DNA of 23,921 bases from a virus. Positions 1 to 22,071 of this stretch are shown in pieces. The notes below the pieces were generated by a model that worked only from the letters and a program-made list of their open reading frames with translations, searched no databases and was not told the DNA's origin. The first letter of the stretch is position 1; every line of letters begins with the position of its first letter. The position numbers and the translations under genes were made by a program. Where the stretch lies: positions 1 through 23,921 of the IMG/VR virus record IMGVR_UViG_3300043294_000486, one strand, 5' to 3'.

Positions 1-1695
1 CTGGCGATCGCCTGGATATTCGGGCAGAAAGGGAAGATTGACCAGCGTCCAATGCCTGGACCAGATATCGGGAATAATGACATCGGCTTCCGACTTGGTT
101 TTACCCAGTTTCAGCAATAGCCCTTTCATGTCGTCCTTATTGCCGTCTATCCATCTGCCGCTGCGAGAACGTCCGACCCATCCCACGCTCTTGTTGTCGG
201 GCGTAACTAGAAAACGGGCGATCTTGTCATATTCGGAGTAGCTTTCATCGGTGGCCTGGGCCTTGATCTCGGCTTGGACACTCAAGACCCTTGTCAACCC
301 GGTGCGATCATTGAGCCAACCTTGTGGCGCTGCCTCGTTGGGATTGTTCTTCTTGACGGCAATGACAACTCGGCCGTCTTTTTGAGGCTTCAAACGGGTT
401 TCGCGTTGCTCGAACTGTTGTGGAATGTCGATGGTCTGGCCAAGCATTTTGACCACGTTTGCGACGTCGTTTGCTGTCGGAAAGACATATCCGCCATTGT
501 TCGGTGCTTCGACGCCGCCCCCGGCCCTGGCTGCGAGGTTCAAGTCGGGCGTCTTGTTGAAGAAGCAATTGGTCCAGCCGTTGCCGTCTTGCTCCCAGGT
601 TTCGGCTTCCGCTGTTCCGGGGGAAAAACGGTACACGCGCCATGCGCCGTTATCGAGGGGAAAACAGAAACAATTGCAGGTGGCGGGGTCTTTCCCTTCG
701 GAAATGGTCCTGAATATCCCTTTGAGTTTCAACGTGGATCGCTGGCCTGGATCGTCGATCAGGTTTTGCAGGGCCTTGGTGTGCGTTTGCAGGAGGTGAT
801 AGTCTGGTATCCAGACAGTGGAGAAACCCGAACGCCCCAGTTCCTCGATGACTGACTTATGCGATTCATCAAGTGGCACCAGGCGACGACTATTTGCCAA
901 CAGTTCAAATGGGTCTTCATGTTCGATCTGCAGTGAATTTATGCGAATCTTGGCCCTGCGTCGTGTGACGACCTCGATATGGTCCCGCCAATTGCCAGGC
1001 AAGTCATCAACGGAGACACTTCTCTCCGCTGGTTTTATAAGGGCCAGTCCATTGTTCGCTTTGTCCATTTTCCGATGCCAAATCCACATGTTCCCGCCGC
1101 AGGCGTCGATTTGGCTGGCAAAATCAAAACCCGTAGTGCTGCTCATCATGCCCAAAATGCAACGAGCCAGAGCGGCGTGCTCTGTGTGGTTGGCGGTCGG
1201 GATTCCATCCGTGGAGAAATAAATGTAGAAATGAAGCCCCTTGCCGCTCGTACTCTTGCGGACCTCCACGTAAGGCAGGGCCTCGGCCGCTTTCTTGACG
1301 CTTTGCAACTCGGCGTCGCTTAGGCCCACCCCTGTCGCGTGTCCAGTGATGCTGTCCACATCGAATCCGACCCAGCGCGACTGCCTCGACTGCCAATCCC
1401 AGCCGGTTGAACCGATTCCCTCGGCATACAGGTCGAGCGGCCAGCGCAACTCATAATCGTGCCACTGCGGTTCGCTGTCAGCATTATGCGGAATTCGGAT
1501 ATTGAACCACTGGTTCACACCGTCCGTGAATGTGCCACGCTTACCGTCGACCGGTTCGCCATTGGCGGCAGACACGTTTACTTGTATTTCCAAAGCGGGG
1601 AGGAATCGCAGTACGCGCTCCAGCAGGTCCGGGCCGTTATGACGCGGCACTTGGGCCTGTAGGAACATCTGTAAAGACTGAGTGACCGACGGCAT
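1..1695 (-). CDS. Archaeo-eukaryotic-type primase (PrimPol-like), 3' end cut off by window edge
   Basis: The minus strand is open from the TAA at 1707-1705 to position 1. This gives 565 codons with no stop in the window, so the C-terminus is missing. The ATG at 1695 is the likely start because AAAGG lies 6 nt upstream. Residues 110-200 carry the three AEP primase motifs: DVD (D112, D114, metal-binding), SGKGLH (150-155, nucleotide-binding His155), and an acidic stretch with D191 and D197. This predicts de novo primer synthesis for element replication, possibly with polymerase activity. Residues about 240-480 do not match a domain I know. The last visible residues (about 545-565) have a Trp/Pro-rich stretch like those before the ATPase part of primase-helicase fusions, so a helicase may follow off the edge; this is inference. 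It is transcribed divergently from all other genes. Plus-strand ORFs inside it are shadows. Confidence 0.8.
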   Translation of the reverse strand, partial: MPSVTQSLQMFLQAQVPRHNGPDLLERVLRFLPALEIQVNVSAANGEPVDGKRGTFTDGVNQWFNIRIPHNADSEPQWHDYELRWPLDLYAEGIGSTGWDWQSRQSRWVGFDVDSITGHATGVGLSDAELQSVKKAAEALPYVEVRKSTSGKGLHFYIYFSTDGIPTANHTEHAALARCILGMMSSTTGFDFASQIDACGGNMWIWHRKMDKANNGLALIKPAERSVSVDDLPGNWRDHIEVVTRRRAKIRINSLQIEHEDPFELLANSRRLVPLDESHKSVIEELGRSGFSTVWIPDYHLLQTHTKALQNLIDDPGQRSTLKLKGIFRTISEGKDPATCNCFCFPLDNGAWRVYRFSPGTAEAETWEQDGNGWTNCFFNKTPDLNLAARAGGGVEAPNNGGYVFPTANDVANVVKMLGQTIDIPQQFEQRETRLKPQKDGRVVIAVKKNNPNEAAPQGWLNDRTGLTRVLSVQAEIKAQATDESYSEYDKIARFLVTPDNKSVGWVGRSRSGRWIDGNKDDMKGLLLKLGKTKSEADVIIPDIWSRHWTLVNLPFLPEYPGDRQ

Positions 1696-1732: not shown

Positions 1733-1854
1733 TATAAGAAAGTGACGACATGCCTTGCGCATCCCAAAAATCTGAAAAATGTTTTTTGCCGCGTCATTTC
1801 AGAAAAATATTTCCATTTTTTGGGATGGACATGCCGGTTTGTCACTTTCTTATA
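1733..1854. promoter_or_regulatory. Divergent control region with an interrupted inverted repeat
   Basis: TATAAGAAAGTGAC (1733-1746) is repeated as its exact reverse complement at 1841-1854. About the same centre, ATCCCAAAAA (1761-1770) is matched by its exact reverse complement at 1817-1826. The gap between the two blocks is 14 nt in both arms, so the arms are 38 bp with 24 invariant positions. GACATGCC also occurs directly repeated at 1747-1754 and 1828-1835. Each outer block, read toward its own gene, is GTCACTTTCTTATA. It lies between the primase start (38 nt away) and the start of the rightward gene (about 145 nt away). This layout suits paired operators or promoters for a regulator, or an origin-binding site next to the primase. 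Which of these is inference. Confidence 0.7.
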
Positions 1855-1998: not shown

Positions 1999-2742
1999 AT
2001 GTCTCAGAACGCATTAGTGAATCTTGATCTGACTCAACTTCCTTCCACACAGATCGGCAGCGACGAAGCCTATACGGAGCTTTCCAAGGGTGGCGATTTC
2101 CTCAGTTACGTCAAGCTGTGTACCAATGACAAATACACAAAAACCGGCAAAATCCTTCCTGGCCATTGGGGCATCCCAGATGCCGGCGACGAGATCATCG
2201 ACCTGGGCGATTCCATAGACGTGCTGCCTTTAGCTCGTCGACCAAAGGCACTTGATTCCAGCGATAAGTCGGCGATCGTCATTTCCTACGATGAGCAATC
2301 GCCTGCGTTCAAGCGGATCGCCGCGAAATCAATGGAGCCGAATTCTGGCTGCCAGCATGGAATCAGCTTTCTGGTAGTGGAACGCTCCACGGGTCAGTTC
2401 CTGGAGATATATTTTGGCACCAAATCAAGCCGGCCGGAGGCCAAAAAGATATTTCCATACCTGCCGTTGAGTCAGGCGGACATCGAACGCAAGGCTGCCG
2501 CAGGAGCCGACGTGCAGGACCTTGTTCCGCATGGCCCGATACCGGTAACTCTCAAAGTCCGCCTAGCGGAAAACAAGAAGGGAATGTGGCACTGCCCTAT
2601 GGTCGTAAAGTGCTCTGCTCCCTTCGCCAAAATCCCGCCCACTACAGCAATCGTCCGCGAGATCAACAGGTTCCTCAGTGCCAAATCGGGTGGCGTGGAA
2701 AAGGTCGAAGAACCAGTAGGCCATAAGGGCCGGGCGCGATAA
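1999..2742 (+). CDS. Unknown phage-type protein, first gene of the rightward operon
   Basis: This is a 247-residue soluble protein with no signal peptide or membrane segment. ATG 1999 is preferred over the in-frame GTG at 1990 because AAAAGG (1985-1990) sits 8 nt upstream of the ATG. The protein has a compact, mixed-structure look and a basic C-terminal tail (ends HKGRAR). It contains the segment GCQHGISFLVVE near the middle. I do not recognise a catalytic motif. Its place as the first gene opposite a primase, ahead of a methyltransferase and helicase, fits a replication accessory protein such as a single-strand DNA-binding protein. That is a guess from context only. Confidence 0.75.
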   Translation: MSQNALVNLDLTQLPSTQIGSDEAYTELSKGGDFLSYVKLCTNDKYTKTGKILPGHWGIPDAGDEIIDLGDSIDVLPLARRPKALDSSDKSAIVISYDEQSPAFKRIAAKSMEPNSGCQHGISFLVVERSTGQFLEIYFGTKSSRPEAKKIFPYLPLSQADIERKAAAGADVQDLVPHGPIPVTLKVRLAENKKGMWHCPMVVKCSAPFAKIPPTTAIVREINRFLSAKSGGVEKVEEPVGHKGRAR

Positions 2743-7522: not shown

Positions 7523-7589
7523 TTTGCCTTCATGGTGGGCGTTCCGCGCCACTGCAATTTTCCAGGTTCATAATGTGGATCAATATCGC

Positions 7590-8903
7590 ATGAGACTATC
7601 CGCCAAAAAGGTCGCCAAGATTAAATCGCACATCCTAAGCGGCATCAAGCAGCCGGATATCGCTAGGCAATTCAAAGTCAGCCGTTCGGTGATTTCGGAC
7701 ATTGCCACCGGGCGGATTCACAAGGACATTCCTTGGCCGGATGGAAAACCCTGTCCGAAAAAGGCCGGAGGCCAGCGGAAGCCCATCGGCGATTATGATC
7801 CGACCGACGCGCGGATCATGGAACTGGAAAGCGAGATCGTCCATCTAACGGAAGAACGCAACAGAGAGCGTGCCAAAGTCAAGGCTGGAGCCAAAATCGC
7901 CGGATTGTTCAAGGCCATCGTTGTGGAAATGGACCGGCGTGTCACGCCCTTCTCGGCCTTGCCCACGGCCATTGACTTCCGCCGCAAGGCCCAAATCGTG
8001 GAACACTGCGCTTTGCACCTGAGCGACGGCCACCACGATCAAGTAATCCGCCCCGAACAGGTCAACGGCTTCGAGGAGTATAATTTCCCCATCTCCTGCG
8101 CGCGTGGCGAGCGACTGGTGGAAACGGTCATTGAATGGACGCAGGACACGCTCGCGCCGAAATTCTATTTTCCCGTCCTCTGGGTATTGGCATACGGAGA
8201 TCATTCGAGTGGCGAGATTCACAAGGCTTGCGAGCGATCATATTATCGCAATCAGTTTAAGAATTGCCTTGCCATCGGCCAGCTTCACGCCTTGATGTAC
8301 CGGGATTTTGCCCGGCACTTCGAGCAGGTCAACGTTCTGTATCTTTCCGGCAATCATGGGAGGCGGACCCCGAAGAAAGACTATTATGGTGCCAACGACA
8401 ATTGGGATTATCTCATTGCCGAAATTGCCCGGCTCCACTGCCGCGAGATTGGAAACATCCATTTCCAGATTCCTGATGCGTGGTCGGTCAATGTCAATAT
8501 CAATGGCGTCGGTTTCAACATTGCGCACGGCGATGATTGCCGCAGCAGTCTCGGCATTCCCTGGTATGGCTTGGTTCGCCGCCAGAAGGGCTTGATTGCT
8601 CTGGGTGCAGCCGCTGGCAACCAGAGAGTGCGCTATCACTGCGTCGGCCATCATCATTCGGCCAGCACCCTGTCCGACATAGACGGCGAACTGATGATAA
8701 ACGGAGCTTGGCTGGGAACCGATCCTTTTGCCTACAACTCTCTGGCGACCTATCGGGAGCCGGCCCAATGGCTGCACGGTGTCAATCCCAAGTACGGAAT
8801 CACCTGGAGGCTAGACTGCAAACTGCGGCATCCAAATGAGAAACAAGGGCCGAAGCGCTATCTTCTCGACGGCGGCCGCGAGGTCGGTCCCTTGGAGGTT
8901 TAG
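7590..8903 (+). CDS. Helix-turn-helix / calcineurin-like metallophosphatase fusion
   Basis: 437 residues from ATG 7590. The frame can be extended to a TTG at 7524, but that extension has no ribosome site and reads poorly. Residues 1-50 form a resolvase/homeodomain-type HTH (core about 18-40), and about 75-110 looks coiled-coil. The rest is a metallophosphatase domain with all metal-ligand motifs: SDGHH (D146, H148), GDH (D204), GNH (N255, H256), AHGD (H313) and GHHH (H354, H356). The family includes SbcD/Mre11-type nucleases and other phosphodiesterases. A DNA-reading HTH on such a domain suggests a nuclease or end-processing enzyme that is sequence- or partner-guided. The substrate is not known. 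Confidence 0.85.
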   Translation: MRLSAKKVAKIKSHILSGIKQPDIARQFKVSRSVISDIATGRIHKDIPWPDGKPCPKKAGGQRKPIGDYDPTDARIMELESEIVHLTEERNRERAKVKAGAKIAGLFKAIVVEMDRRVTPFSALPTAIDFRRKAQIVEHCALHLSDGHHDQVIRPEQVNGFEEYNFPISCARGERLVETVIEWTQDTLAPKFYFPVLWVLAYGDHSSGEIHKACERSYYRNQFKNCLAIGQLHALMYRDFARHFEQVNVLYLSGNHGRRTPKKDYYGANDNWDYLIAEIARLHCREIGNIHFQIPDAWSVNVNINGVGFNIAHGDDCRSSLGIPWYGLVRRQKGLIALGAAAGNQRVRYHCVGHHHSASTLSDIDGELMINGAWLGTDPFAYNSLATYREPAQWLHGVNPKYGITWRLDCKLRHPNEKQGPKRYLLDGGREVGPLEV

Positions 8904-13467: not shown

Positions 13468-14115
13468 ATGATTTTCTGCGCTCGAAATATGCGCTTACAA
13501 CAACCAAACCGCTGGTCATGTCTGCCGACAGCTTTTGCAATGGCCGTGGACATATCGGTGAAGGAATTCATTCGCCGCATCGGCCACGATGGGAGCAAAA
13601 TTGCGTTTCCGACCCAACCTGAGCCGACGTGCAGACGAGGATTCCACATCCAGGAGTGCATTCACGTCGCGCACCAATCGGGCTATGCGGTCACTCCCAT
13701 TGAACTTTTTCCACGCCACGCGCCATCGCTGTCAGTGGAACCGGTTACAGTTTTGTTCGGCGACGAAGAGACCAATCTGGAACGCTTTGCAGCCATTGTC
13801 AATTCAGGGCGCGGAGTAATTACAGGACACGGCCGCCATTGCTGCCATGCCGTGGCTTACAACAGAGGCACCATTTATGACCCAAATGGCAGCGTTTATC
13901 GCTTTTCTCCGTCCAAATGTGAGTCCGAGGGATTCATCGGGACTTGCGCTTGGAATGTAAATGCCATCCATCAAAACCTCAACCTTTGTTTCAACATCCA
14001 TGAAATACAACCACGAATTAAAAGCCAATCTGCAAGCTGTATGCGACACGAACACGGACGCTACGGAAAACGACCGACTCTATCATCTTCTCGTAGACGG
14101 CGACGAGTCGGCTAA
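13468..14115 (+). CDS. C39-like (papain-fold) cysteine peptidase
   Basis: 215 residues. Cys18 follows an oxyanion Gln (QPNRWSC, Q12), His127 lies in RHCCHAVAY and Asp138 in YDPNG, which is the C39/papain-like order. No signal peptide or ABC-transporter domain is present, so it should act in the cytoplasm, perhaps on a leader peptide or host protein. ATG 13489 (residue 8) is an alternative start; neither has a strong ribosome site. The reading frame overlaps the sigma factor gene by 155 nt. The overlapped tail is Arg/Ser-rich and of low quality, so a frameshift near 13950 or a true long overlap are both possible. Confidence 0.65.
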   Translation: MIFCARNMRLQQPNRWSCLPTAFAMAVDISVKEFIRRIGHDGSKIAFPTQPEPTCRRGFHIQECIHVAHQSGYAVTPIELFPRHAPSLSVEPVTVLFGDEETNLERFAAIVNSGRGVITGHGRHCCHAVAYNRGTIYDPNGSVYRFSPSKCESEGFIGTCAWNVNAIHQNLNLCFNIHEIQPRIKSQSASCMRHEHGRYGKRPTLSSSRRRRRVG

Positions 14116-14677
14116 AGAGCAAATGATCGTCAATAATCTGCCACTGGCCGCTTCATGCGCAGCATCTTACGTCGCCCGGCACCAGGAGTATTCGCATCTT
14201 CAAGACGATCTGATCGGCGAAGGCTTTCTTGCAATCGTGAACGCCGTCAACACGATACATCAGCGCACCAATAATGGGAACGGGCGCATCACTTCATACA
14301 TTATCAAGTGCATCCACAGGCACATTAACCGCTTCATCGACAAATCCCCGTTAATTCCCGCTTCTGCTAGGGCATTGCGCCGAGCGCGGCGTGACAAAAC
14401 GGCCTATCCCGCAATACCCAAGGTCACAGCTACGAAAGACGTAACCAGGGCGAAACTCAATACGTCGGCAGAGCCTATTGGAGTTGTAGAACTGCGGGAC
14501 ACCATCGATTCGTGCTGCTTATCGGCGGAGGACAGGGCAATAGTCGCCATGCGGCAGCGTGGTTCCACTTTCCAGGAAATCGCCGCAACCCTCGGCCTTT
14601 CGTGCAATACGACCCATCGGATGTACCTGGAGATCCAACATCGCTTCGACGCCAAGATGAAGGAATTGCAGCAATGA
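13961..14677 (+). CDS. Sigma-70 family RNA polymerase sigma factor
   Basis: 238 residues from ATG 13961 (a weak GGA 6 nt upstream); ATG 14000 is a possible later start. Region 2 is seen from about residue 40 to 130 (LQDDLIGEGFLAIVNAV, then ITSYIIKCIHRHINRFI). Region 4 is a helix-turn-helix at about 190-230 (LSAEDRAIV, then STFQEIAATLGLSCNT). There is no region 1.1 or 3, as in short alternative sigma factors. It should redirect host RNA polymerase to element promoters, plausibly the two similar sites at 10281 and 20370. Its start lies inside the cysteine-peptidase frame, and its stop overlaps the next gene (ATGA). Confidence 0.82.
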   Translation: MPSIKTSTFVSTSMKYNHELKANLQAVCDTNTDATENDRLYHLLVDGDESAKEQMIVNNLPLAASCAASYVARHQEYSHLQDDLIGEGFLAIVNAVNTIHQRTNNGNGRITSYIIKCIHRHINRFIDKSPLIPASARALRRARRDKTAYPAIPKVTATKDVTRAKLNTSAEPIGVVELRDTIDSCCLSAEDRAIVAMRQRGSTFQEIAATLGLSCNTTHRMYLEIQHRFDAKMKELQQ

Positions 14678-21912: not shown

Positions 21913-22071
21913 ATGAAAGTCCAAGAACTCATCAGTCTGCTGCAAAAATGCGATCCCGATTTACCAGTCTATTACTGCACGAGTCTATCTGTGGACCAGG
22001 TTTTGACGCAAACGGTCATAACCGAAAGTGCAAATGGCGAAACCTCGGAAAAGAAGGTGGTGCTCCGGTGA
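21913..22071 (+). CDS. Small unknown protein
   Basis: 52 residues. The N-terminus MKVQELISLLQKCDPDLPVY matches a common pattern in small phage proteins of unknown function; the rest is Thr/Ser/Val-rich and likely beta-structured. Its stop overlaps a possible GTG start of the next short ORF (GTGA at 22068-22071). Function unknown. Confidence 0.6.
   Translation: MKVQELISLLQKCDPDLPVYYCTSLSVDQVLTQTVITESANGETSEKKVVLR

Follow-up and report, generated by a model that had tools for sequence, protein, structure and literature searches.

Promoters of the T7-type single-subunit RNA polymerases are long, phage-specific and present in nearly identical copies. Repressor operators, for example the stoperators of cluster A, are known to diverge rapidly between related phages, and the oriV of RSF1010 carries two like sites, ssiA and ssiB, in inverted orientation within a primase-dependent origin. 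In phages phiEco32 and 7-11, the promoters recognized by the phage-encoded sigma factors have few copies, are well conserved within the genome and lie at divergent and structural gene clusters (PMC4331800). The phage-encoded sigma gene itself is preceded by such promoters, and ten short motifs of ~10-12 bp are listed for phage 7-11 (PMC4331800).

The locus described here lies in a 23.9-kb virus fragment from an uncharacterised phage; we refer to this whole stretch of 23,921 nt as the window. A two-block inverted repeat separates a primase gene from a replication operon that is transcribed in the opposite direction. The plus-strand gene set to the right of the repeat includes a 247-aa protein, a DNA methylase, a helicase, a phosphoesterase with a helix-turn-helix (HTH), DNA polymerase A, an endonuclease match, a sigma factor and an integrase. 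The 247-aa protein may be SSB-like and carries that label provisionally. The phosphoesterase (7524-8903) has its HTH at the N-terminus, and the recognition helix is nearly invariant across the phage family. The features of the locus are as follows.

1..1695, minus strand: primase gene (left gene), truncated by the window end; full-length relatives match the PHROG DNA primase and Pfam DUF5906
1733..1746, minus strand: outer block of the left copy, GTCACTTTCTTATA, with a -10-like TATAAA at 1736-1731
1760..1770, minus strand: inner (upstream) block of the left copy, TTTTTGGGATG
1771..1816, no strand: 46-nt AT-rich centre separating the back-to-back copies
1817..1827, plus strand: inner (upstream) block of the right copy, TTTTTGGGATG
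1841..1854, plus strand: outer block of the right copy, GTCACTTTCTTATA, with a -10-like TATATG at 1851-1856
1999..2742, plus strand: right gene, the first of the long replication operon, encoding the conserved 247-aa protein; no match in Pfam or PHROG
13961..14677, plus strand: phage sigma factor gene, downstream of the right copy and on the same strand; proposed reader of the element

On the plus strand, the outer block TATAAGAAAGTGAC at 1733-1746 is matched at 14 of 14 positions by its reverse complement at 1841-1854, and the inner block CATCCCAAAAA at 1760-1770 is matched at 11 of 11 positions at 1817-1827. The two blocks are separated by 13 nt in each arm, and the repeat spans 122 bp in total. 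The spacers are equal in length and are neither symmetric nor complementary. The outer-block pair is the sole pair of exact inverted 14-mers within 200 bp of each other in the window. When the region 1696-1998 was aligned to its own reverse complement, the score was 62; 1000 dinucleotide shuffles averaged 21.2 and reached 51 at most, so that none scored as well. The exact block matches and the shuffle test, therefore, bear out the original prediction of a two-block inverted repeat with perfectly matched blocks and a span of about 122 bp; its inner block of 10 bp and spacer of 14 nt, rather than 11 bp and 13 nt, result only from assigning one C to the spacer instead of the block. An Rfam search gave no match. 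Two short motifs were observed nearby. GACATGCC is present in both spacers (1747-1754 and 1828-1835) in the same plus-strand orientation, i.e. not mirror-wise, and GCCGCGTCA, at 1788-1796, is also found in intergenic DNA near the elements in the contigs of L004, L009, L012 and L026; its frequency in some contigs is somewhat above that expected from base composition.

Relatives were gathered by searches with the two flanking proteins, which yielded 30 loci, several of them sharing one contig. The bacterial-genome records among them are mainly from Planctomycetota, with one Anaerolinea bin and one Thioalkalivibrio bin, for which binning errors are possible; a search of phage and plasmid records with the primase protein gave no match. 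Most of the relatives examined have a comparable repeat at the same place, with different letters in each. In the directly divergent relatives, the perfect outer arms are 22, 27, 28, 47, 23 and 11 bp long, the longest (47 bp) being that of G004. In a second group, a ParB-like gene lies between the primase gene and the gene for the 247-aa protein, and most members have the repeat between the primase and ParB-like genes; no repeat was found in a few loci (e.g. L013 and L032). Upstream of the primase gene in L023 and L025, the usual position of the element is occupied by GC-rich repeated blocks (AGGGGACGGAG-like), which may be a different repeat. Differences were also seen among the replication genes. 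The helicase of L003 (8352-11036) has an apparent intein-like insertion in its ATP-binding motif, between AEMGC and NCGKT, that the helicase of the window does not have, and L004 has, between replication genes and where the window has the DNA methylase, a 224-aa reading frame (7525-8199) whose product looks, by eye, similar to a ClpP-like protease.

Across the phages, the position of the element, its orientation and its two-copy arrangement are kept and the letters are not; direct comparison of DNA letters fails because the arms differ in sequence from one phage to another. The original prediction had proposed comparing the intergenic region in relatives, and was to be dropped if the blocks were not conserved and neither a transcription start nor protein binding mapped there. 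The comparison went against it in the letters of the blocks and in its favor in their placement, and the lack of letter conservation, taken as a refutation, would have misled.

In the longer contigs of several phages, the arm recurs singly with its block spacing unchanged. To avoid choice by eye, a consensus was built for each of eight phages from its two replication copies only, and the whole contig was ranked against it. In six of the eight (G002, G003, G005, G006, G009 and G016), the best other site in the genome is found where the late (packaging) operon begins, no more than 50 nt from the start of the first gene, the start codon in G003 being approximate. The score of the late site was unmatched in ~1.8 million null positions for five of these six phages; for G005, E was ~0.18. 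Two sites share the top score of 35/37 in G013, one of them preceding a second ParB-like gene and DNA polymerase and the other ~0.8 kb upstream of the TerS-like gene that opens the packaging operon, and the genome-wide ranking gave no clear third copy in G011. The number of copies is two to four per phage. In G009, the primase and ParB/247-aa operons are co-directional and ~6 kb apart, and three direct copies, one each at the primase gene, the ParB-like gene and the late operon, are found, and the element forms no inverted repeat. The element therefore does not depend on symmetry, and each copy belongs to one operon. The conserved element thus stands directly upstream of several operons, in the correct orientation, in the relatives; in the window, the two replication copies are visible. 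For the phage of the window itself, a late-operon copy is only predicted, since the fragment does not include the late operon. A minus-strand match in the window at 22033 (24/38) has no two-block structure and was taken as noise, though a rough null gave it a low E.

Over 35 nt, the identity of copies is 0.74 within a phage and 0.43 between phages, the latter even though the best-matching of 21 registers was taken. Each phage has its own upstream block. The apparent common feature of the phages is a TAnnnT-like or TATA-like hexamer at the outer end of most copies, as identified by eye, which is unclear in G004 and G012. In most cases, the hexamer is followed by a start codon after 10-60 nt; the right gene of the window starts farther away, after ~140 nt. 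Conservation runs right up to the -10-like element. The distance from the upstream block to the hexamer is ~24-27 nt in several phages, so that the standard sigma-70 spacing of -35 and -10 (16-18 nt) is not kept, although such spacing is not required of every phage sigma factor. Scanning the two arms for a consensus sigma-70 promoter detected no matched pair, and only one weak match, in the right arm. Because the block-to-hexamer spacing exceeds that usual for sigma-70, an additional activator, or a different reader, may be involved.

The best candidate for the reader of the element is the phage sigma factor. A homologue was found in the window and in all eight contigs of at least 55 kb, the matches in G013 and G011 being weak. 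Solved sigma factors are matched by the profile of these homologues (best E, 5.6e-19), and sigma factors are the top Foldseek matches of the predicted structure, which has a mean pLDDT of 74. The seven alignable sigma genes are each located downstream of, and on the same strand as, the copy at the SSB/ParB operon. The region-4 recognition helix of the seven aligned sigma proteins is less conserved than any other stretch measured, with an identity between phages of 0.22, compared with 0.54 for the helix of the ParB-like protein and 0.82 for that of the HTH phosphoesterase. If a protein reads a site that changes fast, its recognition helix is expected to change too, and this pattern suggests the sigma factor, as a correlation rather than proof. 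Region 4 may diverge for other reasons, and other fast-evolving DNA-binding regulators could have escaped notice. We would place even odds on the phage sigma factor, acting with the host RNA polymerase, being the reader of the element.

The single late copies and the direct copies of G009 lead us to conclude that the symmetry is a by-product and that each arm is very probably a regulatory element, promoter or operator, that marks the start of an operon; the repeat is inverted because two equal copies stand back to back. The twin copies, their recurrence at the late operon in most long relatives, their gene-ward orientation and their fast divergence with kept placement can be read directly from the sequences; the element is probably a promoter rather than only an operator. 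The best explanation, to which we assign a probability of about 0.68, is that the repeat represents back-to-back phage-specific promoters, with a further copy at the late operon and a candidate sigma factor as their reader. Each arm would be one two-block promoter of ~40 bp, composed of the upstream block TTTTTGGGATG, 13 nt and then a block ending in the -10-like TAnnnT (GTCACTTTCTTATAtg here), and transcription would start just beyond the outer end of the arm. The back-to-back copies would switch on the primase operon to the left and the replication operon to the right together, and the further copy elsewhere in the genome would drive the late (packaging) operon. Because the sigma gene lies in the operon of the right copy, the loop would have to be started by another promoter or by leaky recognition by the host. 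The original prediction had offered a dual operator, a matched pair of element-specific promoters or a replication origin; the matched promoters are best supported, by the single late-operon arms and the direct copies in the co-directional G009, while the operator stays in contention and the origin has lost ground.

A repressor operator that overlaps host promoters is a serious, if unlikely, rival. In that case, the arms would be bound by a repressor or activator of the phage, would overlap promoters of the host type at both early operons and at the late operon, and would diverge in the manner of immunity types. The same sequence evidence fits this arrangement, since a promoter with an overlapping binding site would have this appearance as well; the -10-like TAnnnT would suit a host sigma factor, and integrases are present in the window, G003, G006 and G009. 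However, no Pfam HTH_3 match above the cut-off was obtained in any of 15 records, several long contigs gave no PF00589 integrase, and recognition helices are better conserved in the other HTH proteins measured than in sigma. That conservation extends right up to the -10-like element also counts against an operator. If the promoters were instead those of a single-subunit RNA polymerase, a PF00940 match might be expected; none was found in 12 records, a weak result since control genomes also gave none.

One could also envision a replication origin, with the two arms serving as initiator or primase sites, one per strand, that flank an AT-rich core in a layout comparable to that of ssiA/ssiB of RSF1010 or of the origins used by SF3-type helicases. 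The repeat does adjoin the primase gene, with an AT-rich centre and strand symmetry, and a strong single-strand hairpin is predicted (z, -5.4). An origin is not needed to account for the repeat, however, and we consider it very improbable, given the further copies at late-operon starts far from the primase gene and the separate direct copies that replace the inverted repeat in G009. The GC-skew analysis suggested with the original prediction found no clear turn at the site and is unhelpful there because gene direction also switches. The same G009 arrangement and the single, unpaired copies at operon starts elsewhere led us to reject the idea that the symmetry itself is the signal, as a hairpin or cruciform, which now seems scarcely credible. 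Perfect arms of up to 47 bp in G004 and a predicted fold better than that of shuffled sequences would favor it, but a good z-score is expected of any inverted repeat, and the spacers, though of equal length, are not complementary.

The back-to-back promoter model yields a map of gene control that can be tested in an uncharacterised phage group whose cellular relatives are mostly in Planctomycetota genomes, together with ~8 candidate sigma-promoter pairs, different in each phage. An extension that we consider rather unlikely is a rapidly changing, self-consistent promoter code, in which, in each phage, the sigma factor has changed in concert with its two to four long promoters under a fixed genome layout; related phages would then have mutually incompatible transcription systems, possibly forming a barrier between co-infecting relatives. 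More generally, two equal promoters standing back to back can produce a striking inverted repeat as a by-product, and comparing relatives by position and symmetry, instead of letters, can reveal this.

The element resembles T7-type promoters in being long, phage-specific and present in nearly identical copies; here no PF00940 match was obtained in 12 records, and the control was uninformative. Compared with the oriV of RSF1010, the inverted layout is dispensable in these phages, and copies are present at late operons as well. As with OL and OR of lambda and the stoperators of cluster A mycobacteriophages, the same site is found at divergent early operons and elsewhere, with a specificity that diverges between relatives. 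Unlike the operators of temperate phages, the sites are long and nearly all at operon starts; no HTH_3 repressor was recognised, and lysogeny in the family is only putative. The likeness to phiEco32 and 7-11 lies in the low copy number, the conservation within a genome, the placement at divergent and structural gene clusters and the presence of a phage-encoded sigma gene preceded by such elements. The element described here is a two-block site of ~40 bp with two to four copies, located at replication and late operons, and is, in comparison with the promoters of those phages, longer, rarer and different in sequence in almost every relative.
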